Source: Chloroflexota bacterium
GTDB taxonomy: Bacteria; Chloroflexota; Anaerolineae; 4572-78; J111
Assembly: GCA_020049115.1 (NCBI GenBank)
Contig: JAIFLK010000024.1
Span: 6,932-45,007, forward strand
Reading direction: 5' to 3'
Length of the DNA stretch: 38,076 nucleotides
Shown: piece by piece, positions 9,746 through 23,167 of the stretch
How the letters are laid out: each line of letters starts with the position of its first letter
Position numbering within the stretch: position 1 is the stretch's first letter
Program-made: the position numbers and the translations under genes
The notes under the pieces: model-generated
Databases searched by the model: none
What the model saw: only the letters and a program-made list of their open reading frames with translations
What the model was told of the DNA's origin: nothing

Positions 9746-9852
9746 CTAGTGTCTCGTCAAGCGTCAATTAATGGAATGGTGTTAGTCATCAGGTGACTAG
9801 AAGTCACCTGATGACTCAACAAATCACACTTGACAGCTTGACAGGACACTAG
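9746..9852. repeat. Palindromic element overlapping the 3' end of dhaM
   Basis: A 107-bp unit bounded by near-identical 17-bp inverted ends (CTAGTGTCTCGTCAAGC on the left; two mismatches on the right). It contains an inner 15-bp-arm palindrome (9784-9816) of AGTCATCAGGTGACT type. The last ~30 codons of the DhaM-HPr-EI gene lie inside it. A close copy of the inner palindrome lies after glpK at 18338-18372. Confidence 0.75.
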
Positions 9853-12333
9853 GTAGGAACGTACCGCCTCAGCCGAATCTAAATTAAGGACAGTTTCAGC
9901 AATGGCTTGGGCTTGGCTAACAGTAAATTGGCGAATGGCCTGTTTGACTTGCGGAATTGAGGGCGCGCTCATGCTAAATTCATCTACACCGAGACCCAAC
10001 AAAATAGGCGTGGCTAATGGATTGCCCGCCAATTCACCGCACACCCCCACCCAAATGCCTGCCGCATGCGCCATCATAATCGTTTGACGAATTAACCGTA
10101 ATACGGCAGGTTGCAGCGCGTCAGCTAACCGGGCCACTTTCGGATTAGTACGGTCAGCAGCCATGGTATATTGGCTTAAATCATTCGTGCCAATGCTAAA
10201 AAAATCCACTTCCCGTGCCAATTGGTCAGCCGTAGCCACCGCAGCAGGCACTTCTACCATTACGCCTATGTCAATTTTGGGCGCAAAAGGAACCCCTTGC
10301 TGACGCAATTCACTCTGAGCCTCCGCCAAAATCACTTTAGCCGCCCGTATCTCGCTCACCGTAGAAACCATTGGAAACATGATTTTAAGCTGATGATTCA
10401 CGCTGGTGCGTAATATTGCCCGTAATTGAGTCTTCAGCATGTCAGGCTGGTCTAAACCAATCCGCAAACCACGCCACCCTAAAAAAGGATTGTCCTCATG
10501 GGGCGCGTGCAGATAAGGCAACGGTTTGTCACCACCAATATCCAATGTACGAATAATTAAGGGTCGCGCACCGAGAGCTTCGGCTATGGCTTGATAAACT
10601 GTAAATTGCTCATCTTCTGAGGGCGCGGTTTGGCGGTCAAGATAGAGAAACTCGCTTCGTAACAAACCAACACCTTCCGCGCCCTGCGCTAAAGCAAAGG
10701 CCACATCTTTCAAACTGCCAATATTCGCCACCACCTCAACTTGATGCCCATCTAAAGTTAGCGCAGCTTTATGGGTCATGGCTTGGTTGGTTTGTTGTTG
10801 TTGTAACAATGCTTCATGCCGAGCATGCAATTCGCTCAATTCCGCCTCGGTGGGAGCTAACCAAACTCGCCCTTGTTGCCCATCAAACGCAATGACGCGG
10901 CCATCTTCTAGCTGGCCTAACGATTCACCTAAGCCAACAATCGCGGGGATACCCAATGAACGGGCTAAAATAGCACTGTGAGACGTGGCACTACCTAACT
11001 CGGTGCAGATGCCTAACACTTGGCTGGGGTCTAAATCGGCGGTATCAGAGGGAATTAAATCAGGGGCAATTAAAATAACGGGGTGAGTAAACACAGTTTT
11101 AGGAGCTATTTGAGGCGAGTCAATTATTAATAATTTCAAGACTCGTTGCCCCACATCCCATACATCCGCCGCGCGCGCCTGCATGTAACTGTCGGCTAAA
11201 TGGCGATAGGCAACCACCATTTGATTGATAATCCGTTGCCAGGCACTAGCGGCATTAATTTGATGGGTTAAAATTTCTTGGTGAGTGGCTTCAACTAAGG
11301 TTGGGTCGGCTAAAAAAAGTAAGTGCGCCTGAAAAATAGCCGCTTGCCCCCCCCCCACTTGAGCAAGGGTTTGCTGATATAATTGTTGAATTTGCGCTTG
11401 GGCAGTTTGCAAAGCAATTTCTAAACGCTCCCTTTCCGCTGCAACATGCAGGGTCGTTTGCTCAACTACTTCAATCACAGGGCGACGATATTGCTGCACA
11501 GGGCCAATAGCAATGCCTGGGGAAACAGGAATACCTAACAATTCATTGCCTTGAATAGGTAAATTTTGTGGAATAACAGCCGCCACAGTTTCAAAATCTT
11601 GGTCACTTTCACCAAAATTGGCTACCGCTAACGCCTTTAGTGCAGCCAACACCGCCACCGCATCATCTCCCGCCGCCTTAATCAATATTTCATGCCCATG
11701 TTGCACCCCTAACATGGCAACTTGATTAATACTTTTGCCATTGACCGCGAGGCTATTGGTGGTCAAATTAGTTAAAGTTACGGTAGCTTGGAATTGGCTA
11801 GCGGTCATCACAAATTGTGCCGCTGGACGGGCATGAAGGCCATGTTTATTACGAATAGTAAGTAATAATTTCAAAGCAGTTGGCTCTACGGTAAGAAACG
11901 TGGGAACAACTGAATGTGACAGAAAATCAGCCAATTGGGCCCGCTTGGGAGTTAAGGCCGCTTGCGCTTCGGCAATAATTTGTTGCACATCATTCGTGGC
12001 AGTGGCTTGAGTGGCCGCTGAAAAAGCCCCTTCAACTAAAGGGGCTGAACAAAGATAAACGTGGGTGCGCTGCTCATCGGGCAAAAATTCAAGGGCAGTC
12101 TCGGCACTGATTAAAGCACTGCCCAAATCCATTAACACAATCACCCCATCGGGACTATAAACCGACTCAATCGCCGCCAAAATCCGCATGGCATCCGTAC
12201 CCAACAGAGAGTCAGAGTCGGCTAAACCACCCGCCGCCGCCACTACCACTTGATTTTGGGTAGCTTGCCGCACCAAATCACACACCCCTTCAGCTAACTT
12301 GGCACTATGTGAAACAATTACTAGGCTTATCAT
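9757..12333 (-). CDS. dhaM: DhaM-HPr-Enzyme I fusion: PEP-dependent phosphoryl donor for dihydroxyacetone kinase
   Basis: An 858-aa cytosolic PTS protein with three units in order. An EIIA-Man-like DhaM domain (1-125) has H9 in VSHSAKLAEG. An HPr domain (about 152-242) has H167 in HGLHARPA and S201 in NGKSINQ. Enzyme I begins near 265 (GIPVSPGIAIGPV), with H452 in GSATSHSAILAR, a PEP-binding barrel (FSIGTNDLSQYTMAADRTN) and the Cys-containing VGVCGELAGNP. E. coli DhaM has only a truncated Enzyme I part; here it looks complete, so the protein could take phosphate from PEP and pass it along itself to the ADP bound on DhaL. It lies 39 nt after glpC, last in the glycerol locus. The final ~30 residues (from about SCQAVKC) come from a repeat element and are probably not native. 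Confidence 0.93.
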   Translation of the reverse strand: MISLVIVSHSAKLAEGVCDLVRQATQNQVVVAAAGGLADSDSLLGTDAMRILAAIESVYSPDGVIVLMDLGSALISAETALEFLPDEQRTHVYLCSAPLVEGAFSAATQATATNDVQQIIAEAQAALTPKRAQLADFLSHSVVPTFLTVEPTALKLLLTIRNKHGLHARPAAQFVMTASQFQATVTLTNLTTNSLAVNGKSINQVAMLGVQHGHEILIKAAGDDAVAVLAALKALAVANFGESDQDFETVAAVIPQNLPIQGNELLGIPVSPGIAIGPVQQYRRPVIEVVEQTTLHVAAERERLEIALQTAQAQIQQLYQQTLAQVGGGQAAIFQAHLLFLADPTLVEATHQEILTHQINAASAWQRIINQMVVAYRHLADSYMQARAADVWDVGQRVLKLLIIDSPQIAPKTVFTHPVILIAPDLIPSDTADLDPSQVLGICTELGSATSHSAILARSLGIPAIVGLGESLGQLEDGRVIAFDGQQGRVWLAPTEAELSELHARHEALLQQQQTNQAMTHKAALTLDGHQVEVVANIGSLKDVAFALAQGAEGVGLLRSEFLYLDRQTAPSEDEQFTVYQAIAEALGARPLIIRTLDIGGDKPLPYLHAPHEDNPFLGWRGLRIGLDQPDMLKTQLRAILRTSVNHQLKIMFPMVSTVSEIRAAKVILAEAQSELRQQGVPFAPKIDIGVMVEVPAAVATADQLAREVDFFSIGTNDLSQYTMAADRTNPKVARLADALQPAVLRLIRQTIMMAHAAGIWVGVCGELAGNPLATPILLGLGVDEFSMSAPSIPQVKQAIRQFTVSQAQAIAETVLNLDSAEAVRSYLVSCQAVKCDLLSHQVTSSHLMTNTIPLIDA

Positions 12334-12372: not shown

Positions 12373-13623
12373 TTAAATCAGCCCGTATGCTTGCGCCAAC
12401 AACTGTACGGGGTGAATCATCTTTGCGCCTGTGCCATGTCCAATTTGCCAGCGACAGGTTTCGCTGTCACACACCGCAACATCTGACCCCGTCGCCTTCA
12501 CTTGGTCAAATAACGGCTTACCAACCGCCATCCCAATATCATATTTCTCTTTCTTATAGCCGTAAGTTCCCGCAATGCCGCAACAATCGGCTTGCATGTG
12601 CTGAATTTTCACGCCAGGAATCATCTCCATCAACTCAATCGCGGGCAGCCCCATGTTATGGGCTTTCAATTGGCAAGCCGAATGATACGGTAGCGTTACA
12701 TCTATGGTCTTAAAATCGGTTTTTAATTCATTATTCTGCCATAATTGTAATAAAAATTCGCAAATATCATACGTTTGTTGCGCTACCAACCGCGCGTCCT
12801 CGTTATCAATCTCCAAAATATGCTTATAATCGGATTTGAGCGACAAGGTGCAACTCGTAGACGTGCCAAGAATAATGTAGCCCGCGCGGGCATACTCCAC
12901 CAATGAATTAATATTACTATGGGCATTATGGCGCGCCGCGTCAAACTCGGCATTAGAAAGCATGGGCAGGCCGCAACAGACCTGCGGTGGTATCAATACT
13001 TCGTAACCATTATGTTCCAATACGGCCACCGCCGCTTTGCCGATATGCGGTTCATAATAATTGGTACTACAGCCATGATAATAGACCACTTTTTTCTGCG
13101 ACACGAATTGTTGGCCTGACTTTTGATGCACACCCTTAAACCAACCCCGAAATGTTTCAAAAGAAAATGGTGGCAACGGCGCATCACGATGCACGCCCAT
13201 AATGACCTCTATTAACTGTCGTAGTGGTTTGATTTTTAGCGTCATATTCGCAAAGGGCGCAACGGGACTGACCAACATGCCCAACAATTCAGACCGACCT
13301 AACAAACGGTTACGGAGAGGGATACTCTTCTTTTCCTGATACAGTTTGTAACGCGCCTTTGCATTCATCTCCATGACCTTGACCTCATGGGGACAAACCA
13401 TCGTACACACGCCACAACCGCTACAATAATCTAGGCTGTCATCTACCGAAATTTCATGGGGATTGCGGAAACGTTGCGCCTGCGGCCCCACAAATTTGGG
13501 GCCAGGGAATTTATCAGTCACGTTGGCAACGGGGCAAAAGGAGGTGCAAATATTACACTTTACGCACAAATCCGCCGAGTTTTGCACTTGGTGCCAAATG
13601 GAAAGGGTGATATCGTCAGTCAT
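12373..13623 (-). CDS. glpC: Anaerobic glycerol-3-phosphate dehydrogenase subunit C (Fe-S / CCG protein)
   Basis: A 416-aa membrane-associated electron-transfer subunit. Two [4Fe-4S] motifs are near the N-terminus: CVKCNICTSFCPV (C20, C23, C26, C30) and CSGCGVCTMVCPHEV. Two CCG cysteine-rich domains follow, with PPQVCCGLPML and ADCCGIAGTYG. This is the GlpC layout, which passes electrons from the GlpAB flavoprotein to the quinone pool. It is separated from glpB by two nuclease-like genes, although glpABC is normally contiguous. Just upstream of the start is a 58-bp heptamer palindrome; no good Shine-Dalgarno is visible, so the inserted repeat may have displaced it. Confidence 0.93.
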   Translation of the reverse strand: MTDDITLSIWHQVQNSADLCVKCNICTSFCPVANVTDKFPGPKFVGPQAQRFRNPHEISVDDSLDYCSGCGVCTMVCPHEVKVMEMNAKARYKLYQEKKSIPLRNRLLGRSELLGMLVSPVAPFANMTLKIKPLRQLIEVIMGVHRDAPLPPFSFETFRGWFKGVHQKSGQQFVSQKKVVYYHGCSTNYYEPHIGKAAVAVLEHNGYEVLIPPQVCCGLPMLSNAEFDAARHNAHSNINSLVEYARAGYIILGTSTSCTLSLKSDYKHILEIDNEDARLVAQQTYDICEFLLQLWQNNELKTDFKTIDVTLPYHSACQLKAHNMGLPAIELMEMIPGVKIQHMQADCCGIAGTYGYKKEKYDIGMAVGKPLFDQVKATGSDVAVCDSETCRWQIGHGTGAKMIHPVQLLAQAYGLI

Positions 13624-13626
13624 GGT

Positions 13627-13684
13627 GAATTAGGAATTAGGAATTAGGAATTAGAATTTAAATCTAATTCCTAATTCCTAATTA
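13627..13684. repeat. Heptamer tandem repeat forming a 20-bp perfect palindrome
   Basis: Four GAATTAG units, a 9-nt spacer (AATTTAAAT), then the complementary CTAATTC units. Arms 13635-13654 and 13664-13683 pair perfectly. It fills the gap between the second nuclease-like gene and glpC and includes most of the former's stop codon. It is closely related to 9692-9742. Confidence 0.9.
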
Positions 13685-14308
13685 TAAATAAGGTTGAATT
13701 AATACCTTGACTTTTTTGAGGGCTTTAAGAATGGTAAAAATATCGTCACGCGATGCGTTGTAAGGTTCAGCCATAGAGTATTCTTGACCTAACAAAGTCA
13801 TAAAGTACCATAATTTACCTTCTACAATCACGCCGTAAATCGGTTGTTGCGGATTATTATTTTTGGCTTGGACACAAACCATGGCAATCAATAACTGTCC
13901 AATCGGGTCATTATTACTACGGCGCGACCATTTGTACTCATGCAGACAAAAATAGGGTTGTTTGGGTTTTTGTTTACCTTTGGCTAATAAAAAATCAACC
14001 ACGCCCCCCACTTCAATATCCTTAATTTTAGCTTTCAACTTACGCTCAAAAAAAGGGCGATATTCAGGCTGGTAATATTGCGCCAAGCGAATGAGATGGG
14101 TAATGAAAAACATTTCTAATTCCCATTCATTCCATTGGTCAAAATAAAGGTTAAGATCATTACGCAACTCTATTAAACGTTGTTGCTCTACTTCACTGAG
14201 TGGGTCAGGTAAATCTAGCCAAGATAATAATAACGGATGTTGTTGAACTCGTTTAATTCCAAAACTATCCTCAACTTCCTCATAACTCCATTGCTCAAAT
14301 GACTTCAT
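13682..14308 (-). CDS. PD-(D/E)XK nuclease-like protein, paralogue 2
   Basis: A 208-aa soluble protein starting MKSFEQWSYEEVED. The ATG at 14308 is preferred over a TTG three codons upstream: GAGG lies about 9 nt before it, and it aligns with the start of the neighbouring paralogue. The C-terminal half carries the layout of a PD-(D/E)XK nuclease fold: E88 (FFERK), D105 (GGVVDFLLAKG), E124-x-K126 (CLHEYKW) and Q138 (DPIGQLL). It is very similar to the gene just upstream, which points to a local duplication. It begins 12 nt after that gene ends and lies between glpB and glpC. No known function in glycerol metabolism; DNA binding or cleavage is inferred from the motif only. Confidence 0.65.
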   Translation of the reverse strand: MKSFEQWSYEEVEDSFGIKRVQQHPLLLSWLDLPDPLSEVEQQRLIELRNDLNLYFDQWNEWELEMFFITHLIRLAQYYQPEYRPFFERKLKAKIKDIEVGGVVDFLLAKGKQKPKQPYFCLHEYKWSRRSNNDPIGQLLIAMVCVQAKNNNPQQPIYGVIVEGKLWYFMTLLGQEYSMAEPYNASRDDIFTILKALKKVKVLIQPYL

Positions 14309-14320
14309 ATTACGCAACCT

Positions 14321-14950
14321 CTACAAATAGGGTTCAATTAATACTTTCACTCGTTTAAGAGCCTTAAAAATGGTAAAAATATCCTCACGCGTGGCCGTGT
14401 AAGGGATACTTAACCCATATTCCTGACCTAGCAACGTCATAAAATACCAAAATTGCCCCTCAACCAACACCCCATAAACGGGTTGTTGCGGATTATTATT
14501 TTTGGCTTGGACACACACCATCGCTATCAACAACTGCCCCACAGGGTCATTACTACTGCGGCGCGCCCATTTATATTCATGCAAGCAAAAGTAAGGTTGT
14601 TTAGGTCTTACTTTACCCTTAGCTATCAAAAAATCAACCACCCCACCCACCTCAATCTTGCCTATTTTAGCCTGTAACTTGCGCTCCGTAAAAGGTTTAT
14701 ATTGTTCCTGGTCATAATCAGTTAGCAATAATAAAGGGCTAATGAAAAACATTTTTAGGTCTTCTTCAGCCCAATTATTAGCATTTCTTTTCAATCTATT
14801 TTGATGCACCAGCAGAGATTGCAATTCATCATTAGAAATAATTTCGGTCTCAACCGCTAACCATTCCAACAAAGTAGCCTGATTAGTAACTTGAACCACA
14901 TTAAATTCCATTTCAACTTCCTCAAAAGTCCATTGCTCAAATGATTTCAT
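14321..14950 (-). CDS. PD-(D/E)XK nuclease-like protein, paralogue 1
   Basis: A 209-aa protein starting MKSFEQWTFEEVEME. The start at 14950 is set by an ATGA overlap with the glpB stop codon, implying translational coupling; the longer frame upstream only runs through the glpB 3' end. Motif residues are E89 (FTERK), D106 (GGVVDFLIAKG), E125-x-K127 (LHEYKW) and Q139 (DPVGQLL), matching a PD-(D/E)XK core. The last ~120 residues are nearly identical to the downstream paralogue, while the N-terminal ~80 differ more. I do not recognise a named family. It could be a stand-alone nuclease-fold protein that inserted into the operon and then duplicated. Confidence 0.65.
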   Translation of the reverse strand: MKSFEQWTFEEVEMEFNVVQVTNQATLLEWLAVETEIISNDELQSLLVHQNRLKRNANNWAEEDLKMFFISPLLLLTDYDQEQYKPFTERKLQAKIGKIEVGGVVDFLIAKGKVRPKQPYFCLHEYKWARRSSNDPVGQLLIAMVCVQAKNNNPQQPVYGVLVEGQFWYFMTLLGQEYGLSIPYTATREDIFTIFKALKRVKVLIEPYL

Positions 14951-16200
14951 CCTAACAACTCCCTCACGCGCCACGCCGTTGCCACCGCCACACCGTCCCC
15001 CGTGCGGCCTTGCGTCCAAACGGAGTTAGCTAACAAACCGCCTACGGCATGCAAATTAGTGGCTAACGGTTCAGTTTGACTATTCACAGGGTTAAATCTG
15101 TCATTCACTTGCACCCCATAACGCGCCACAGGTTGACCTTGCGGAGCTAAAAAACCTTTATCAAACCAAGCATGACGGTTCGTTTCATGCTCAATCGGCA
15201 GATTAAAGACCGCTTCCCACACCCGACCTTCATTATCCGTTTGCAAACCACCGCCAAAAATGCTCCCCGTTGCCAAAATGTAATTTTGCGCCTTGATAGC
15301 TTGCAAACGACTGGCCGTCTCTATGCGAATTTGGCTGACGCGGCCTGACTCAATCGTACCGTCCACCACCTTGCTACCAATGGTCAACCGCCCACCATGT
15401 TGCAAAAAGTAATGGCGCAATTGCTCAAATAACCGTCGCCCTGGCACAGAAGGCGGTAAGGTGCTAATCTCAAAAACAGTGCGGCCTAATTGTCGCTCTA
15501 AATCAGCCAAAACAGTGGCATGCTGTTGCAGCCCTAACACCGCAGGAAAGCCGACACGGTTACAGTTCTTAACTTTATCTCGTATCTCCGTAACAATTTG
15601 TTGCCGAAACTCAGCTTGCTCAAAAGCATGGGCTAATTCAATTGGCGTAATGTTCATGCGCTCCCGTAACGGAGGTGGCGCATCTATCGTAATGGCCTCA
15701 CTTTGCACGCCCAAATTTTGGGCATTGAGATTATGGCTAATTAAGGACGGATAAAAGTCCCGCAACTCCTTAAAGCCCACAATCAACATGCTCCCACCCT
15801 GACTCAACTCCCCTTGAGCGAGGGCTTTGGGTGCTAAACAGGTCGGATGAACCGCGCCTGCCGTACTCGGCAAGAGCCAATTTTTATCAAAACTGCCTTC
15901 ATAACCCTCAACCAACTCTAAAAACGCGCCCAAGCTCGCCTCAATTTTAGCTTGGCCTAAGTGATGATAAGGGTGTTCAGGTTGCTCAGTTAGAAACGCG
16001 CCTAACTGCTTGGCGGGATTTATGACGGGTTGTTGCGAAGCCGCAGGCTGAAACCCTAACACATCAATACAGCCAGAAGCCAACACCAATGAGCCAATGC
16101 CTGTACTCATTAACGCTACTTTTTGTTTCGCTTGGGCTAAATGACAAGCAGTGGTCAACCCCGCCAACCCCGCCCCAATAATAACGGTATCGTAATTCAT
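14947..16200 (-). CDS. glpB: Anaerobic glycerol-3-phosphate dehydrogenase subunit B
   Basis: A 417-aa flavoprotein subunit. The N-terminal dinucleotide-binding motif is VIIGAGLAGLTTACHLA, followed by the GlpB-typical SLVLASGCIDVLG. Other family signatures are HPTCLAPKALAQGE, GFPAVLGL and the C-terminal AVGGLLANSVWTQGRTGDGVAVATAWRV. GlpB forms the soluble dimer with GlpA that oxidises sn-glycerol-3-phosphate, handing electrons to GlpC. The stop overlaps the next gene's start (ATGA). The region before the ATG consists of TCATTGG heptamers and shows no Shine-Dalgarno, so initiation may depend on translation from glpA or be weakened. Confidence 0.92.
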   Translation of the reverse strand: MNYDTVIIGAGLAGLTTACHLAQAKQKVALMSTGIGSLVLASGCIDVLGFQPAASQQPVINPAKQLGAFLTEQPEHPYHHLGQAKIEASLGAFLELVEGYEGSFDKNWLLPSTAGAVHPTCLAPKALAQGELSQGGSMLIVGFKELRDFYPSLISHNLNAQNLGVQSEAITIDAPPPLRERMNITPIELAHAFEQAEFRQQIVTEIRDKVKNCNRVGFPAVLGLQQHATVLADLERQLGRTVFEISTLPPSVPGRRLFEQLRHYFLQHGGRLTIGSKVVDGTIESGRVSQIRIETASRLQAIKAQNYILATGSIFGGGLQTDNEGRVWEAVFNLPIEHETNRHAWFDKGFLAPQGQPVARYGVQVNDRFNPVNSQTEPLATNLHAVGGLLANSVWTQGRTGDGVAVATAWRVRELLG

Positions 16201-16287: not shown

Positions 16288-17934
16288 CTAATGACCAATT
16301 TCGTAATATCCTTCCGTTTCAATTTCGCCGAGGCGAGGTTGATTCGTACCGCTTAACTCAGTCGGTAATTTATCTAAACCTAACAAGCCCACATAAATAC
16401 CCTCATCTAACTGCATTTGGCGCAAATGTTGCCCCCATAACACGGTACTCATGCCCTTCCAGCGTTCCTGCAAAAAATCAACCAACGCCTGCAAAAAATC
16501 AACCAACGCCTTATTGGTTTGCGTAGCAGAAAGTTGTTTATGTTGGTGCATAATGCCCGCCGCCCGATAGGTGCAAAAACCTCCCTGACACGGCCCCATG
16601 CCCAAACGCAAATCTCGGCGCAAATCATTAATAATATTCCAATCGTTATGAGCTAAATGATGCTCAATCTGTGGGCGAGTGACAATTTCACATTCACAAA
16701 TCAATTGCCCCGACAATTCGCCCTTTTCCAGTTTCTCCAACCGTTGACCCAACGTGAAATATTGACCCGCAAAATCCTTGTGCGGATTTTTCAATACAGT
16801 GGTCGCCGTCTTACCTGGCCGCGTAACGTTCAATTTCTTACAGACCAAATCCGCCGTATGTTCAGCCATGAGGCGATAAGTCGTCCATTTACCACCCGTA
16901 ATCGTTACAAAACCGTCCACCCCGTCACGGCTGTTATGGTCAAGCAAGGTATATTTACGGGTCACATCACGCAAATCTGACCCCGCCGATTTATCCTGAT
17001 ACAACGGCCGCACCCCCGCCCAAGCCCGTAATGCCCGAAATTTCTTAAAAGTGGGAATAAGTTTCTCGCCTTCATCTAACATGAGCTTAATTTCCCAATC
17101 TTCAATCGCATAATTATCAGGGTCAGATACCTTAACGGAAGTCGTGCCAATCACCGCCACCGAGCCAATTGGCACAATAATATCACCATCATGGGGATGA
17201 ATACAACGATTAACCACCGTATTGACCATACGGTAATTCATCGCAATCATCGTGCCTTTGCCTGCATAAACCGTCACCTCGCAACCCGCCATGTGAGCGA
17301 TTTGACCGCCCCACGCCCCCGCCGCGCTCACCACCATATCGGCCTCAATCGTGACCGTTTCACCCGTTACGGTGTTTTTCGCCACCGCGCCTGTCACTTT
17401 ACCCTGACTCTTCAAAATATCCACAATTTCATGGTAAACCAACGTCTCCGCCCCAAACTCCGCCGCCGACTCGGTCAAGGTGCGGCAGGCTTCCCACGTT
17501 TCCACGCTGCCATCAGGCACAGTGAAGGCACGGGTGATACCAGGATTAAGCAACGGCTCACGACGTAAGGCTTCCGCAATGGCAATTTCCTCAACAGGAA
17601 TCCCTGCCTGTTTGCAACCAAAGTAAAATTTATCGGTAAAATCAAGCGGGTCACCTGGCACAGAAACAAACAGGCCGCCCGTGTCTTCAATGCAATGGGG
17701 GATAACTTTTCGTAAGATATTATTCTCTTCAATACACTCCACCGCCGCATCAAAATCATTCACCGCATATCGCCCACCACTATGCAGCAGGCCATGAAAC
17801 CGCCCCGATGTCCCCATCGAAAGCGCGCCCCGTTCTACCAAAATACATTTGAAGCCCCGTTGCGCCAAATCAAACAGTACCCCACACCCCGTTGCCCCGC
17901 CACCAATGATTAAAATTTCGGTTGATTTTTTCAT
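16288..17934 (-). CDS. glpA: Anaerobic glycerol-3-phosphate dehydrogenase subunit A
   Basis: A 548-aa FAD-dependent catalytic subunit that oxidises glycerol-3-phosphate to dihydroxyacetone phosphate. The FAD-binding start ILIIGGGATGCGVLFDLA is followed by the family motif MGTSGRFHGLLHSGGRYA; the DAO fold runs to about 370. A C-terminal BFD-like cysteine cluster (CECEIV..., GMGPCQGGFCTYRAAGIM) suits the [2Fe-2S]-carrying GlpA and not aerobic GlpD. A 21-bp tandem duplication (16467-16508) repeats seven residues (VDFLQAL) near the C-terminus in frame. Its last codons lie in a heptamer repeat. The short upstream region is itself an AGTCTTTC array in which GAAAG could serve as ribosome-binding site. 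Confidence 0.94.
   Translation of the reverse strand: MKKSTEILIIGGGATGCGVLFDLAQRGFKCILVERGALSMGTSGRFHGLLHSGGRYAVNDFDAAVECIEENNILRKVIPHCIEDTGGLFVSVPGDPLDFTDKFYFGCKQAGIPVEEIAIAEALRREPLLNPGITRAFTVPDGSVETWEACRTLTESAAEFGAETLVYHEIVDILKSQGKVTGAVAKNTVTGETVTIEADMVVSAAGAWGGQIAHMAGCEVTVYAGKGTMIAMNYRMVNTVVNRCIHPHDGDIIVPIGSVAVIGTTSVKVSDPDNYAIEDWEIKLMLDEGEKLIPTFKKFRALRAWAGVRPLYQDKSAGSDLRDVTRKYTLLDHNSRDGVDGFVTITGGKWTTYRLMAEHTADLVCKKLNVTRPGKTATTVLKNPHKDFAGQYFTLGQRLEKLEKGELSGQLICECEIVTRPQIEHHLAHNDWNIINDLRRDLRLGMGPCQGGFCTYRAAGIMHQHKQLSATQTNKALVDFLQALVDFLQERWKGMSTVLWGQHLRQMQLDEGIYVGLLGLDKLPTELSGTNQPRLGEIETEGYYEIGH
16467..16508 (-). repeat. 21-bp in-frame tandem duplication in glpA
   Basis: Two exact adjacent copies of a 21-bp unit starting CCTGCAAAAAATCAACC (plus strand), giving VDFLQALVDFLQ in the protein. 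It keeps the reading frame and lies in the C-terminal region after the cysteine cluster. Confidence 0.9.
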
Positions 17935-18392: not shown

Positions 18393-19904
18393 TTATTCTA
18401 CCCAATCAAAGGAGCGAGTAACGGCCTTCTTCCACATGGCAAACAATGTAGTTCGCGCCGCCTCGTCCGCCGAGGGTTCCCAGGTCTTATCAACGCCCCA
18501 GTTAGCGCGCATTTCGTCGGTGTTCTTCCAGAAACCAACCGCCAACCCCGCCGCGTATGCCGCGCCGAGTGCGGTGGTTTCAGCCACTTTCGGGCGCACC
18601 ACAGGTACGCCTAACACGTCAGCTTGGAATTGCATGAGTAAGTTATTGTAAACCATACCGCCATCAACTTTCAACGCGGTCAATGGCACACCAGAGTCGG
18701 CGTTCATGGCATCTAAAACTTCACGGGTTTGATAGGCTGTAGCCTCTAAAGTGGCGCGGGCAAAATGGCCGCGATTGACATAACGCGTTAGCCCAGCAAT
18801 CACGCCACGTGCGCTGTCCTTCCAATAAGGCGCATATAACCCTGAGAAGGCTGGCACAAAATAAATGCCACCGTTATCATCAACCGTCTTGGCGAGATTT
18901 TCAACGTCAGTTGAGTTCTCAATCAATTTCAAATTATCACGTAGCCATTGCACCAACGCACCCGTAATGGCGATAGAGCCTTCTAAGGCGTAGACGGTGG
19001 CTTCGTTGCCAAATTTGTAACAAACGGTGGTCAGCAAGCCATTTTTAGAGGGTACAATTTCCGTCCCCGTATTCAAAATCATGAAACAGCCCGTACCGTA
19101 GGTATTCTTCGCTTCACCAGGGCTAAAACAGGCTTGCCCCACTGTCGCCGCTTGTTGGTCACCCAAGTCGCCACAAACAGGAATCCGTCCACCAAAGGGG
19201 CCGTCATCTAGCGTATAGCCATACGCGGTAGGGTCGCTAGAGGGGCGAATTTGGGGCAACATGGACATGGGAACGCCCATGGTTTTGGCAATGTCGGCGT
19301 TCCAACTTGTGCCTTCCAAATTCATTAACATGGTACGGGAAGCATTGGTCACATCCGTCACATGTGCGCCGCCATTCACGCCACCCGTCAAATTCCAAAT
19401 AACCCAGGTGTCAATATTACCAAAAATAGCATCACCTCTTTCGGCCGCTTCACGAATCCCAGGGATATTGTCTAAGAGCCATTTGACTTTCAAGCCCGAG
19501 AAATAAGTTGCCAAAGGCAAGCCCACTTGGGCGCGGAAGCGGTCTTGTCCGCCATTCGCGGCCAATTCAGCCACCACTTTATCATTACGAGTATCTTGCC
19601 AAACCAACGCGTTGTGATACGGTTTGCCCGTATTTTTGTCCCAAATAACGGTGGTTTCACGTTGATTGGTGATACCAACGGCGGCAATATCTTTAGCCGT
19701 AATGCCGACTTTCTGCATCGCCCCTTTAATCACATCTTGGGTGCGCGCCCAAATTTCCATCGGGTCATGTTCCACCCAACCTGGTTTGGGGAAAATTTGT
19801 TCATGTTCCATCTGATGAAGCCCGACGGATTCACCTGCATGGTTAAAAATCATACAACGGGTACTGGTTGTACCCTGGTCAATTGCTGCAACATACTTAG
19901 CCAT
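18393..19904 (-). CDS. glpK: Glycerol kinase
   Basis: A 503-aa FGGY-family kinase that phosphorylates glycerol to sn-glycerol-3-phosphate with ATP. The N-terminus reads [19 protein letters not shown], with the catalytic-region signature [18 protein letters not shown]. The nucleotide-binding part includes [30 protein letters not shown], and the C-terminal FGGY region has [22 protein letters not shown]. Length is typical of the family. AAAGGAGAT lies 5 nt before the ATG, a strong ribosome-binding site. The order puts it after dhaL (133-bp gap with a hairpin repeat) and before the GlpAB genes that use its product. Confidence 0.97.
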
Positions 19905-20037: not shown

Positions 20038-20664
20038 TTAACTCCACAACTCAGCGGCAGTTTTAAGCAAAAGATAAGATGAGGTTGCGCCTGGGTCTTG
20101 ATGCCCAATACTCCGTTCACCGAGATAACTAGCCCGACCTTTTTTGGCTAAAAGGGGAATAGTGCCTTTCATTCCTGATTCAGCTGCCATAACCCCTTGT
20201 TGTAACATTTCTTTCAGGTCAGCCCCATTATTCAGTGCCTGTTGCATAGCATTAATCGCGGGAGTCAGCGCGTCCACCATTGTTTTATCTTCTAATTGAG
20301 CCTTGCCCCGTTGCAACACCCCATCTAAACCTGCTTGAAAAATCGCCACTATATCAGCCGCAGCCAATTCGGTTTTCCCTGCACAGGCCGTACTCGCGCG
20401 CAGGAACAGCGTCCCATATAATGGGCCAGAAGCTCCCCCCACGCTAGAAATGAGGGTCATCGCAACAGTTTTTAAGACACTACTCACATCAGGCGGATTA
20501 GTCTCAGCCAATTTTTTAACCACCGCGCTATAGCCTCGGTCAAGGTTAATGCCATGGTCAGCATCACCAATTTTAGCGTCCAAATCGGTCAGATACTCTT
20601 TGTTCTCAGCATAAACTTTTTGCAGGGCCTCAACCCAAGCCACAATATCATCTCGACTAACCAT
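20038..20664 (-). CDS. dhaL: PTS-dependent dihydroxyacetone kinase, ADP-binding subunit
   Basis: A 208-aa cytosolic subunit with tightly bound ADP that is re-phosphorylated by DhaM. The Mg-ADP site is visible: D29, D34 and D36 with H37 in LTDLDAKIGDADHGINLDRG. Nucleotide-contacting loops include SSVGGASGPLYGTLFLRAS and the C-terminal YLGERSIGHQDPGATSSYLLL. The length matches stand-alone DhaL, as opposed to the fused ATP-dependent kinases. It starts 3 nt after dhaK stops, so the two are co-translated. The presence of a DhaM gene in the same locus supports PTS dependence. Confidence 0.95.
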   Translation of the reverse strand: MVSRDDIVAWVEALQKVYAENKEYLTDLDAKIGDADHGINLDRGYSAVVKKLAETNPPDVSSVLKTVAMTLISSVGGASGPLYGTLFLRASTACAGKTELAAADIVAIFQAGLDGVLQRGKAQLEDKTMVDALTPAINAMQQALNNGADLKEMLQQGVMAAESGMKGTIPLLAKKGRASYLGERSIGHQDPGATSSYLLLKTAAELWS

Positions 20665-20667
20665 TGC

Positions 20668-21669
20668 TTAAACTCCCCAACGCAACCCAGGTGTATTCAC
20701 TGGCGCATCCCATAAACTTAACATTTCGGCATCGGCTTTTACCAACGTAATAGAACAGCCCGCCATGTCTAATGACGTAATGTAATTACCCACTAAACGG
20801 CGCGCAATCGTCATGCCTTTGGCTTCGCAAATTTGGTTCAATTCGTTATAAACCAAATAGAGTTCAATCAGCGGTGTCCCGCCCATGCCATTGACCAGCG
20901 CAATCACTTGGTCACCTGAGCTAAAAGGCAAATCCGAGATAATCGCTTCAGCCATCAAAGTGACAATTTCTTTCGCGCTCTTCATTTCCATGCGCGTGCG
21001 GCCAGGTTCGCCATGAATACCAATGCCTATTTCCATCTCATTCTCGCCCAACTCAAAGGTGGGTTTCCCCGCCGCAGGCACAGTGCATGAGGTCAAGGCC
21101 ATGCCCATTGAGCGACCATTGGCGTTCACTTTACGACACCAATCCGCAACGGTTTGTAAGTCATCGCCCCGTTCGGCTGACGCGCCGCAAATTTTCTCAG
21201 CGATAACGGTTGTGCCAACGCCCCGCCGCCCCGCCGTATAAAGGCTATCTTGCACCGCCACATCATCATCAATCACCACCGACACGACCTCAATCCCTTC
21301 GGCTTGGCACAATTCTGCGCCCATCTCAAAGTTCAGAATATCGCCCGTATAGTTCTTAACGATATGCAACACGCCCACCCCGCCATTGACGGCCTTCGTG
21401 GCCGCTTCCATCTGGTCAGGCGTAGGCGAGGTGAAAACATCGCCCGCGCAAGCCGCATCAAGCATCCCCATGCCAACAAAACCACCGTGCATGGGTTCAT
21501 GCCCGCTACCGCCGCCAGAGATAATCCCGACTTTGCCTTTTTTGGGCGCATCGGCGCGTATCACCAAACGGCTATCAAAATCAATCCGCACTAAATCAGC
21601 ATGAGCCGCACCGACACCTGCCAGTGATTCTTTAACCACATTTGCTGTTTCGTTGATTAGTTTTTTCAT
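20668..21669 (-). CDS. dhaK: PTS-dependent dihydroxyacetone kinase, substrate-binding subunit
   Basis: A 333-aa subunit that binds dihydroxyacetone covalently as a hemiaminal on a histidine. H219 in [11 protein letters not shown] fits this residue. Other signatures are [19 protein letters not shown], the [15 protein letters not shown] loop and the C-terminal [17 protein letters not shown]. It receives phosphate from ADP-charged DhaL to make dihydroxyacetone phosphate. The gene starts 23 nt after glpF ends, with an AAGGT ribosome-binding site. No glycerol dehydrogenase gene is in the window, so the source of free dihydroxyacetone must lie elsewhere. Confidence 0.96.
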
Positions 21670-21692: not shown

Positions 21693-22439
21693 TTAAAAAC
21701 CAAACGGTGCAACCGCCATATAAAGAAGTGCCGCAATAATGGAGCCAATGACTGGGCCAACCACAGGAATCCAGGAATATTCCCAATCACTATCACCTTT
21801 ACCCGCAATGGGCAAAACAAAGTGAGCAATCCGTGGGCCGAGGTCACGGGCGGGGTTAATGGCGTACCCTGTTGGGCCACCGAGAGATAAACCAATCGCC
21901 AAAACCAACAACGCCACCGGGATAATCCCTAACGCGCCCATTGAAACATTAACGGTTGAACCCGCCTCAGCATAAGAAACGCCCTTGATACATAAAATCC
22001 CGAATATCAAGACAAACGTACCGATAATCTCGCCCATTAAGTTTGAGGTTACATTACGAATGGCGGGGCCAGTGCTAAAGACCGCTAATTTAAGCCCCTG
22101 GTCTTTCGTTTCAGCCCAGTGGGGTAAATACATTAACCAAACTAACGTTGCGCCTAAAAACGCTCCAATCATCTGCGCCACAATATAGGGGCCAACTTGC
22201 GCCCATGCGAATTTACCTGCCACCGCCAAACCAATAGTCACCGCGGGGTTGAGATGCGCCCCACTTGCCGCCGCTGAAATATATGCGCCGACAAAGACGG
22301 CCATCGCCCAGGCCAAGGTGATGACAATCCAGCCTGAATTGTTACCTTTGGTTTTAGCCAAAAGCACGTTGGCAACCACACCATCACCTAGAAGAATCAA
22401 AAACATTGTACCAATCACTTCGCCTACAAAACCGTTCAT
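21693..22439 (-). CDS. glpF: Glycerol facilitator (aquaglyceroporin)
   Basis: A 248-aa six-span MIP channel. Two NPA boxes are present: GAHLNPAV (N64-A66) and GYAINPARDLGPR (N194-A196). The Asp just after the second box (D198) marks a glycerol channel, as distinct from a water channel. The start at 22439 is chosen because GGAGG lies just before it; a start six codons upstream would put that site inside the gene. It is first in the glycerol locus, preceded by a long leader, a promoter and a CRP-type site. It would let glycerol and probably dihydroxyacetone into the cell for GlpK and DhaKLM. Confidence 0.96.
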   Translation of the reverse strand: MNGFVGEVIGTMFLILLGDGVVANVLLAKTKGNNSGWIVITLAWAMAVFVGAYISAAASGAHLNPAVTIGLAVAGKFAWAQVGPYIVAQMIGAFLGATLVWLMYLPHWAETKDQGLKLAVFSTGPAIRNVTSNLMGEIIGTFVLIFGILCIKGVSYAEAGSTVNVSMGALGIIPVALLVLAIGLSLGGPTGYAINPARDLGPRIAHFVLPIAGKGDSDWEYSWIPVVGPVIGSIIAALLYMAVAPFGF

Positions 22440-22532
22440 ATTTTCCTCCTTCAACATTGAAGAACTAAATTTATTTTAAGTAGAGATTATTTGCTTGGTT
22501 TGTCATCAAGCCGACAAACGGGGGAATAGTTA

Positions 22533-22582: not shown

Positions 22583-22671
22583 CGCTTACATATAACTAAA
22601 ATTGAACTATTTTTGGAAAATTACACACCTCCTTTCAGATAACTTAAGGGCTATGCCAACTAATAATATAG

Positions 22672-22843: not shown

Positions 22844-22872
22844 ATCATAGCACTTTTTTCTCATTTGGTCAA
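22844..22872 (-). promoter_or_regulatory. Promoter of the glpF-dhaKL-glpK locus
   Basis: TTGACC (22867-22872) and TATGAT (22844-22849) are separated by exactly 17 bp on the minus strand. The -10 is extended (TGC before TATGAT). The predicted start is near 22837. Confidence 0.7.
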
Positions 22873-22890
22873 ATAGTGAGGCCAATTATA

Positions 22891-22906
22891 TGTGAATTTT
22901 TTCACA
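22891..22906. promoter_or_regulatory. CRP/FNR-type site centred at -61.5
   Basis: TGTGA-N6-TCACA, a perfect match to the E. coli CRP consensus half-sites. Its centre (22898.5) is at -61.5 from the start site predicted by the -10 box, the classical class I activator position. Confidence 0.6.
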
Positions 22907-22916
22907 CTATTTAATA

Positions 22917-22954
22917 AGCAAAAAGTGAGTTTAGGATAACCCTAAACTCACTTT
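22917..22954 (-). terminator. Intrinsic terminator after the BMP lipoprotein gene
   Basis: A perfect 14-bp stem (AAAGTGAGTTTAGG and complement, 22922-22935 with 22941-22954), a 5-nt loop, and a T run on the minus strand. It insulates the glpF promoter from the upstream gene. Confidence 0.75.
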
Positions 22955-23010: not shown

Positions 23011-23167
23011 TAGGACTTACGCAAAACTGTTCATTTTGAGGAGTGACACACGCCCTCGTGTGTCACTGTTAGCACGAGGGCGTGCTAACTCCGCGATTTT
23101 TACACGCCCTCGTGTGTCACTGTTAGCACGAGGGCGTGCTAACTCCGCGATTTTTGCGTAAGTCCTA
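23011..23167. mobile_element. Non-autonomous element, TAGGACTTACGC family, with 5-bp target duplication
   Basis: A 157-bp unit with 16-bp perfect terminal inverted repeats (TAGGACTTACGCAAAA) and the direct repeat TAAGC on both sides (23006-23010 and 23168-23172). The interior is two copies of a 54-bp unit, each with a hairpin around ACACGCCCTCGTGTGT and GCACGAGGGCGTGC. It has no coding capacity, so it must be moved, if at all, by a transposase encoded elsewhere. Confidence 0.75.

Follow-up and report, generated by a model that had tools for sequence, protein, structure and literature searches.

How is the use of glycerol and dihydroxyacetone controlled in an uncultured member of the Chloroflexota? 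The question is raised by a perfect TGTGA-N6-TCACA palindrome that lies upstream of glpF in the 38,076-base stretch of DNA analysed here (hereafter, the window). A first-pass annotation had read this palindrome as a CRP-type site at the class I activation position of the operon promoter, and had proposed control by a CRP/FNR-family activator with the same geometry as in enterobacteria. In E. coli, the glp regulon (glpFK and glpACB) brings glycerol uptake, glycerol kinase and the anaerobic G3P dehydrogenase under CRP/FNR-family control, whereas here the corresponding genes form a single fused operon that also includes dhaKLM. Our literature search on Crp regulons and transcription factors in Anaerolineae returned no paper, and little published regulatory work was found. 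The explanation that we prefer, and that we hold to be evenly poised between right and wrong, is that the palindrome would be a class I site for a CRP/FNR-superfamily activator of anaerobic respiration at the glpF operon.

The glycerol/dihydroxyacetone operon, its promoter and its leader

The genes are arranged in the order glpF-dhaK-dhaL-glpK-glpA-glpB-(two paralogous ORFs)-glpC-DhaM-like. The features of the operon and of its upstream region, with the matching models in brackets, are as follows:

9757-12333, minus strand: DhaM-like EIIA-HPr-EI phosphotransfer protein (PF03610, PF00381, PF05524, PF02896)
12373-13623, minus strand: glpC (NF008369)
14947-16200, minus strand: glpB (TIGR03378)
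16288-17934, minus strand: glpA, anaerobic G3P dehydrogenase subunit A (TIGR03377)
18393-19904, minus strand: glpK (TIGR01311)
20038-20664, minus strand: dhaL (TIGR02365)
20668-21669, minus strand: dhaK (TIGR02363)
21693-22457, minus strand: glpF, aquaglyceroporin (PF00230, TIGR00861)
22626-22636, minus strand: orphan Shine-Dalgarno sequence GAAAGGAGGTG in the leader, lacking a start codon
22670-22722, minus strand: strong terminator-like hairpin in the glpF leader, followed by UUUUUCU
22837, minus strand: predicted transcription start, placed 7 nt past the -10
22844-22852, minus strand: extended -10, TGC-TATGAT (AAAAAAGTGCTATGAT, identical in G010)
22867-22872, minus strand: -35 hexamer TTGACC (position kept in the G005, G010 and G008 leaders)
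22891-22906, no strand assigned: CRP/FNR-type palindrome TGTGAATTTTTTCACA
22922-22954, minus strand: intrinsic terminator hairpin upstream of the palindrome, with a 14-bp stem and a T-tract

The best named matches of GlpF are Chloroflexota MAGs, which supports the lineage given by the annotation. The two paralogous ORFs between glpB and glpC (13682-15019, about 210-230 aa) share a conserved HEYK motif and gave no Pfam match; a protein similar to them (L004:217-864) precedes the only CRP/FNR gene of the assembly.

The predicted promoter, TTGACC-N17-TGCTATGAT, is read on the minus strand, and the sequence around it and the palindrome is AAATAGTGTGAAAAAATTCACATATAATTGGCCTCACTATTTGACCAAATGAGAAAAAAGTGCTATGATAGGGG. 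On this strand, the promoter scan matched TTGACC-N17-TATGAT with its TG extension and nothing else. The centre of the palindrome, 22898.5, falls at -61.5 relative to the predicted start. In class I CRP-dependent promoters the site is centred at -61.5, or at -71.5, -81.5 and so on, and the position found here, relative to a predicted and conserved promoter, is thus of the class I type. Comparison with relatives of the same family showed identity with the core promoter of the window (TTGACCAAATGAGAAAAAAGTGCTATGAT) at 24 of 29 positions in G010 (TTGACACCATAGGAAAAAAGTGCTATGAT) and at 22 of 29 in G005 (TTGACTCCATAGGAAAAAGGTGCTATTAT); the end of the spacer and the -10 recur in both (GAAAAAAGTGCTATGAT, GAAAAAGGTGCTATTAT), and the G008 promoter is TTGACC-N17-TAAGAT with TGC. 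The predicted sigma70-type glpF promoter is conserved across family relatives, and the geometry is credible because the core promoter is kept in them. The promoter elements, the 17-bp spacer and the -61.5 position described in the annotation are confirmed.

The annotation had also placed the terminator of the upstream gene just behind the palindrome. The hairpin at 22922-22954 is real; its assignment to the upstream gene is plausible and goes no further, because 311 bp and several repeats lie between it and the stop of that gene (23266). In this intergenic region, we also observed a MITE-like unit (23011-23167), bounded by 16-nt perfect inverted repeats (23011-23026 and 23152-23167) and enclosing two identical 54-bp tandem copies.

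Expression could also be decided downstream of the promoter, by a leader attenuator to which the palindrome would be at most accessory. The terminator-like hairpin lies between the promoter and glpF in the window and has equivalents in L031, L036, L037, L039 and L040, and the leader folds better than its shuffled versions (z -5.55), a score that is partly due to palindromic repeats. These features suggest that the hairpin may be an uncharacterised attenuator. As the main control of the operon, such an element seems highly improbable to us: the leader matched no Rfam family at the gathering score, sub-threshold matches being at chance level; no GlpP antiterminator (PF04309) is encoded in the 12 family genomes; and no common aptamer-like sequence was found among the leaders. 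A riboswitch or other known RNA and GlpP-type antitermination were rejected on the first two of these results. A predicted attenuator is, moreover, compatible with the CRP/FNR-site reading rather than exclusive of it.

Two further observations concern the same leader. The sequence AAGG[AG]GG, corresponding to the orphan Shine-Dalgarno sequence, occurs in the equivalent leader zone of 22 of 35 relatives vs 0.84 in shuffles, in most cases 60-200 nt before glpF and with no start codon. A leader peptide was rejected, since no consistently spaced start codon follows among the relatives. In Bacillus mRNAs, a strong Shine-Dalgarno sequence that lacks a start codon serves as a 5' stabiliser, STAB-SD (PMC3997798). 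Finally, a family-conserved inverted repeat, TGTTCA...TGAACA, lies just downstream of the -10 in L031, L037, L039 and L040, no more than about 40 nt from the predicted start, and may be an operator or a 5' RNA hairpin.

The palindrome and its motif across the family

The palindrome (minus strand, TGTGAAAAAATTCACA) consists of two inverted TGTGA half-sites spaced by 6 bp, as in operators of the CRP/FNR superfamily and in agreement with the annotation, and it is the only match with 0 mismatches in the window. After dinucleotide shuffling, the window contained 0.02 perfect sites on average, and a perfect site in the 808-bp intergenic region was obtained by chance in 0.05% of cases (P = 0.0005). 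At two mismatches, sites are not in excess in the window (10 observed vs 13.2 expected). A role of the palindrome as a terminator was rejected, its stem being of 6 bp and its T-tract inadequate on both strands.

The palindrome might nevertheless be a chance occurrence or a relic in an A+T-rich intergenic region that gathers repeats and palindromes, next to a promoter that works independently of it. Several unrelated palindromic repeats are indeed present within the surrounding 700 bp, and in the own assembly of the window, sites with up to one mismatch are not in excess (50 vs 51 for the control). In a genome of the same family, G007, a dispersed repeat present in many copies (CCCTGTGAATGAATTCACAGG...AACCTGCTTAAGCAGGTTT; L270-L287) ends in the same 16-bp frame as the palindrome (TGTGAATGAATTCACA). 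Furthermore, no TGTGA-N6-TCACA with up to one mismatch was found in any of the other glpF upstream regions, all from outside the genus, that were scanned, including the sequences upstream of the -35 in G008, G005, G010, G003 and G011. The conservation of the palindrome in relatives, by which the annotation had proposed to judge its reading, was thus not observed; unlike the core promoter, the sequence upstream of the -35 differs among family relatives. Against an origin by chance stand the low regional probability and the spacing of exactly -61.5 to a conserved promoter. The surroundings of the site do not match the G007 repeat, and derivation from that repeat was rejected because the flanking sequence differs. 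Overall, we regard chance or relic as unlikely, although it keeps more weight than any of the other alternatives considered here.

Three TCAC-type half-sites can be read directly on the minus strand, TTCACACTATTT, TTCACATATAA and CTCACTATTTG, the last of which abuts the -35. They might form a composite operator for another regulator, possibly a repressor, or control a second -10: TAAATA-N17-TATAAT, with TATAAT at about 22885-22890, ranks second among the promoter matches of the region. However, the -35 of this second promoter is poor and relatives show nothing equivalent to the half-sites, and we consider a composite operator improbable.

Across the family, the motif is more frequent than its control. 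In 11 genomes, G007 being left out owing to its dispersed repeat, we counted 53 perfect sites vs 16 for the reversed pattern, a control that differs from the motif in its dinucleotides. Of 53 perfect sites inspected, 42 were located in intergenic regions, and promoter-like sequences were present at activator distance in 25 of 90 site orientations vs 41 of 491 random positions. The own assembly contains three perfect sites (one coding) vs one for the control. Among the genes concerned, electron transfer recurs: one site (L253) lies between a crp/fnr gene and nosZ, five precede hoxE/nuoE-like genes (L257, L292, L298, L299 and L309), and two precede multiheme cytochromes (L305 and L003), of which that of L003, in the window's own genome, is QrcA-like. 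Others precede gltD-like genes (L268 and L308), PEPCK (L307), ETF (L293) and further genes. With a PWM built from the family intergenic sites, the window site scores 5.7 over flank and variable core positions, higher than any of the 11 coding sites (maximum 1.3) and within the range of the genuine-looking ones, a score to which its A+T-rich flanks contribute. The family consensus leans towards TTGTGA..TCACAA, the window site being GTGTGA..TCACAT. Judged by intergenic position and coherent targets, TGTGA-N6-TCACA is used as a putative regulatory motif in the family, and this family of Chloroflexota appears to have an anaerobic-respiration CRP/FNR regulon. A comparable case is HcpR of Desulfovibrio, a member of the CRP/FNR family, whose consensus TTGTGANNNNNNTCACAA is described as identical to that of E. 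coli CRP and whose targets belong to energy metabolism (PMC545781). The likeness concerns the consensus and the energy-metabolism targets only, the sites inspected here being at nosZ, hoxE/nuoE-like and cytochrome genes.

Candidate regulators and the question of cAMP

Several CRP/FNR types are encoded in the family genomes. One of them, which we call VREMV after its R-E-x3-R helix (GTVREMVGR), is present in seven of the 11 other family genomes; it keeps the equivalents of Arg180, Glu181 and Arg185 of E. coli CRP, and in three of the seven, its own gene is preceded by a site with at most one mismatch. The assembly from which the window comes, which is 56% complete, encodes one CRP/FNR protein, at L004, with LHMVSR in place of the RETVGR of E. 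coli CRP, and no R-E-x3-R CRP/FNR gene was found in this 56%-complete assembly. A NapC/NirT-type cytochrome gene adjoins the L004 gene. The search for a regulator with an E. coli-like helix, suggested by the annotation, is thus positive in the family, while the sole protein of the own assembly departs from that helix. Likewise, control by a CRP/FNR-family protein is favoured by the family motif and by the VREMV helix, and disfavoured by the LHMVSR sequence.

The palindrome and its spacing are those of an E. coli class I promoter of the lac type, with the same TGTGA-N6-TCACA, the same -61.5 centre and a sigma70-type promoter. This likeness would fit true cAMP-CRP catabolite control in the enterobacterial style, in which the glycerol operon is activated when preferred sugars are absent; the genome also has 19 class III cyclase and 16 cNMP-binding domain matches. 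However, alignment showed that the VREMV-type regulator and the CRP/FNR protein of the own genome lack the Arg82/Ser83 pair with which E. coli CRP contacts cAMP: GPN-PAN and GVY-PAS replace the E. coli GQERSA. The E. coli CRP reference in this alignment was entered by hand, and PDB searches recovered CRP as a relative. In addition, the CRP equivalog model had no match above its cut-off (71.8 vs 266), the inspected cNMP-binding proteins of the own genome other than L004 have no CRP-type HTH, and the target genes are respiratory. We therefore consider cAMP-CRP control very improbable, even slightly more so than a composite operator. The palindrome of the window is probably recognised by a CRP/FNR relative that serves anaerobic respiration and does not respond to cAMP. 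The comparison with enterobacteria made in the annotation stands for the geometry and fails for the signal, the predicted targets being electron-transfer genes and not catabolite-repressed ones, in a phylum distant from enterobacteria. Its overall interpretation is supported in part: of the observations that it had set in advance as speaking against it, lack of conservation and lack of a CRP-family protein were both partly made.

Predicted DhaR sites in relatives and a possible exchange of regulator

In E. coli, DhaR controls dihydroxyacetone kinase operons. Class-wide, we found 21 distinct glpF loci at which tandem GTTTC-N5-GAAAC palindromes, separated by 31-34 bp, precede a sigma70-type promoter; loci with such tandem sites are L032, L034-L036, L038, L057, L058, L062 and L196-L215. 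In 19 of the 21, the best promoter, sought within a range of about -44 to -110, gives the proximal palindrome a centre between -57 and -61 and the distal palindrome one close to -91. At several of these loci, an enhancer-binding-type regulator gene (Fis-HTH matches) lies directly upstream. The full-length regulator examined, that of L058, matches the DhaR equivalog model (629 bits vs a cut-off of 551) and has GEFLGH in place of GAFTGA, the motif of sigma54 activators, which suits a sigma70 promoter. The tandem palindromes are likely to be DhaR operators in Anaerolineae, binding being deduced from gene linkage, and most of the class is predicted to control the glycerol/dihydroxyacetone operon by DhaR.

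The window and most of its family differ from these relatives. Tandem GTTTC-N5-GAAAC sites were not found at glpF in the family, and the assembly of the window has neither a DhaR gene nor the tandem palindromes. DhaR is missing from 10 of the 12 family genomes; one (G008, at a second locus) has a strong homologue and G003 a weak match. In L037 and L040, the -35 is immediately preceded by direct repeats of roughly 11 bp (CTACGATTACC/CTACGCTAACT type), which suggest yet another activator in that genus.

In most relatives, predicted DhaR sites take nearly the position that the palindrome has here, so that DhaR control appears to have been replaced specifically in this lineage. In such an exchange, the ancestral DhaR, acting from about -59 and -91, would have been lost in one family and a non-cAMP CRP/FNR protein would have taken the -61.5 position. 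This proposal is tentative, and we think it somewhat less probable than its contrary. For the class I reading of the palindrome, the scheme would be as follows. The sigma70-type extended -10 promoter (22844-22872) would drive the glpF-dhaKL-glpK-glpABC-dhaM operon, and a CRP/FNR-superfamily regulator bound to the palindrome at -61.5 would act as a class I activator by contacting the C-terminal domain of the RNA polymerase alpha subunit. This regulator would be of the type that governs the anaerobic respiration and electron-transfer genes of the family (nosZ together with its own gene, hoxE/nuoE-like genes and multiheme cytochromes), and expression of the operon would rise on a change of electron acceptor or redox state. 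Here, we infer the identity of the binding protein, the activation and the signal. Respiratory control would fit an operon that contains the anaerobic G3P dehydrogenase GlpABC.

For one family, these data provide a TGTGA-N6-TCACA regulon that can be tested; for the class as a whole, they provide a predicted DhaR architecture at glpF. The activator has apparently been exchanged while the core promoter was kept. If the exchange took place, a carbon pathway would have moved from substrate sensing by DhaR to respiratory control, and the use of glycerol would be coupled to the supply of electron acceptors.
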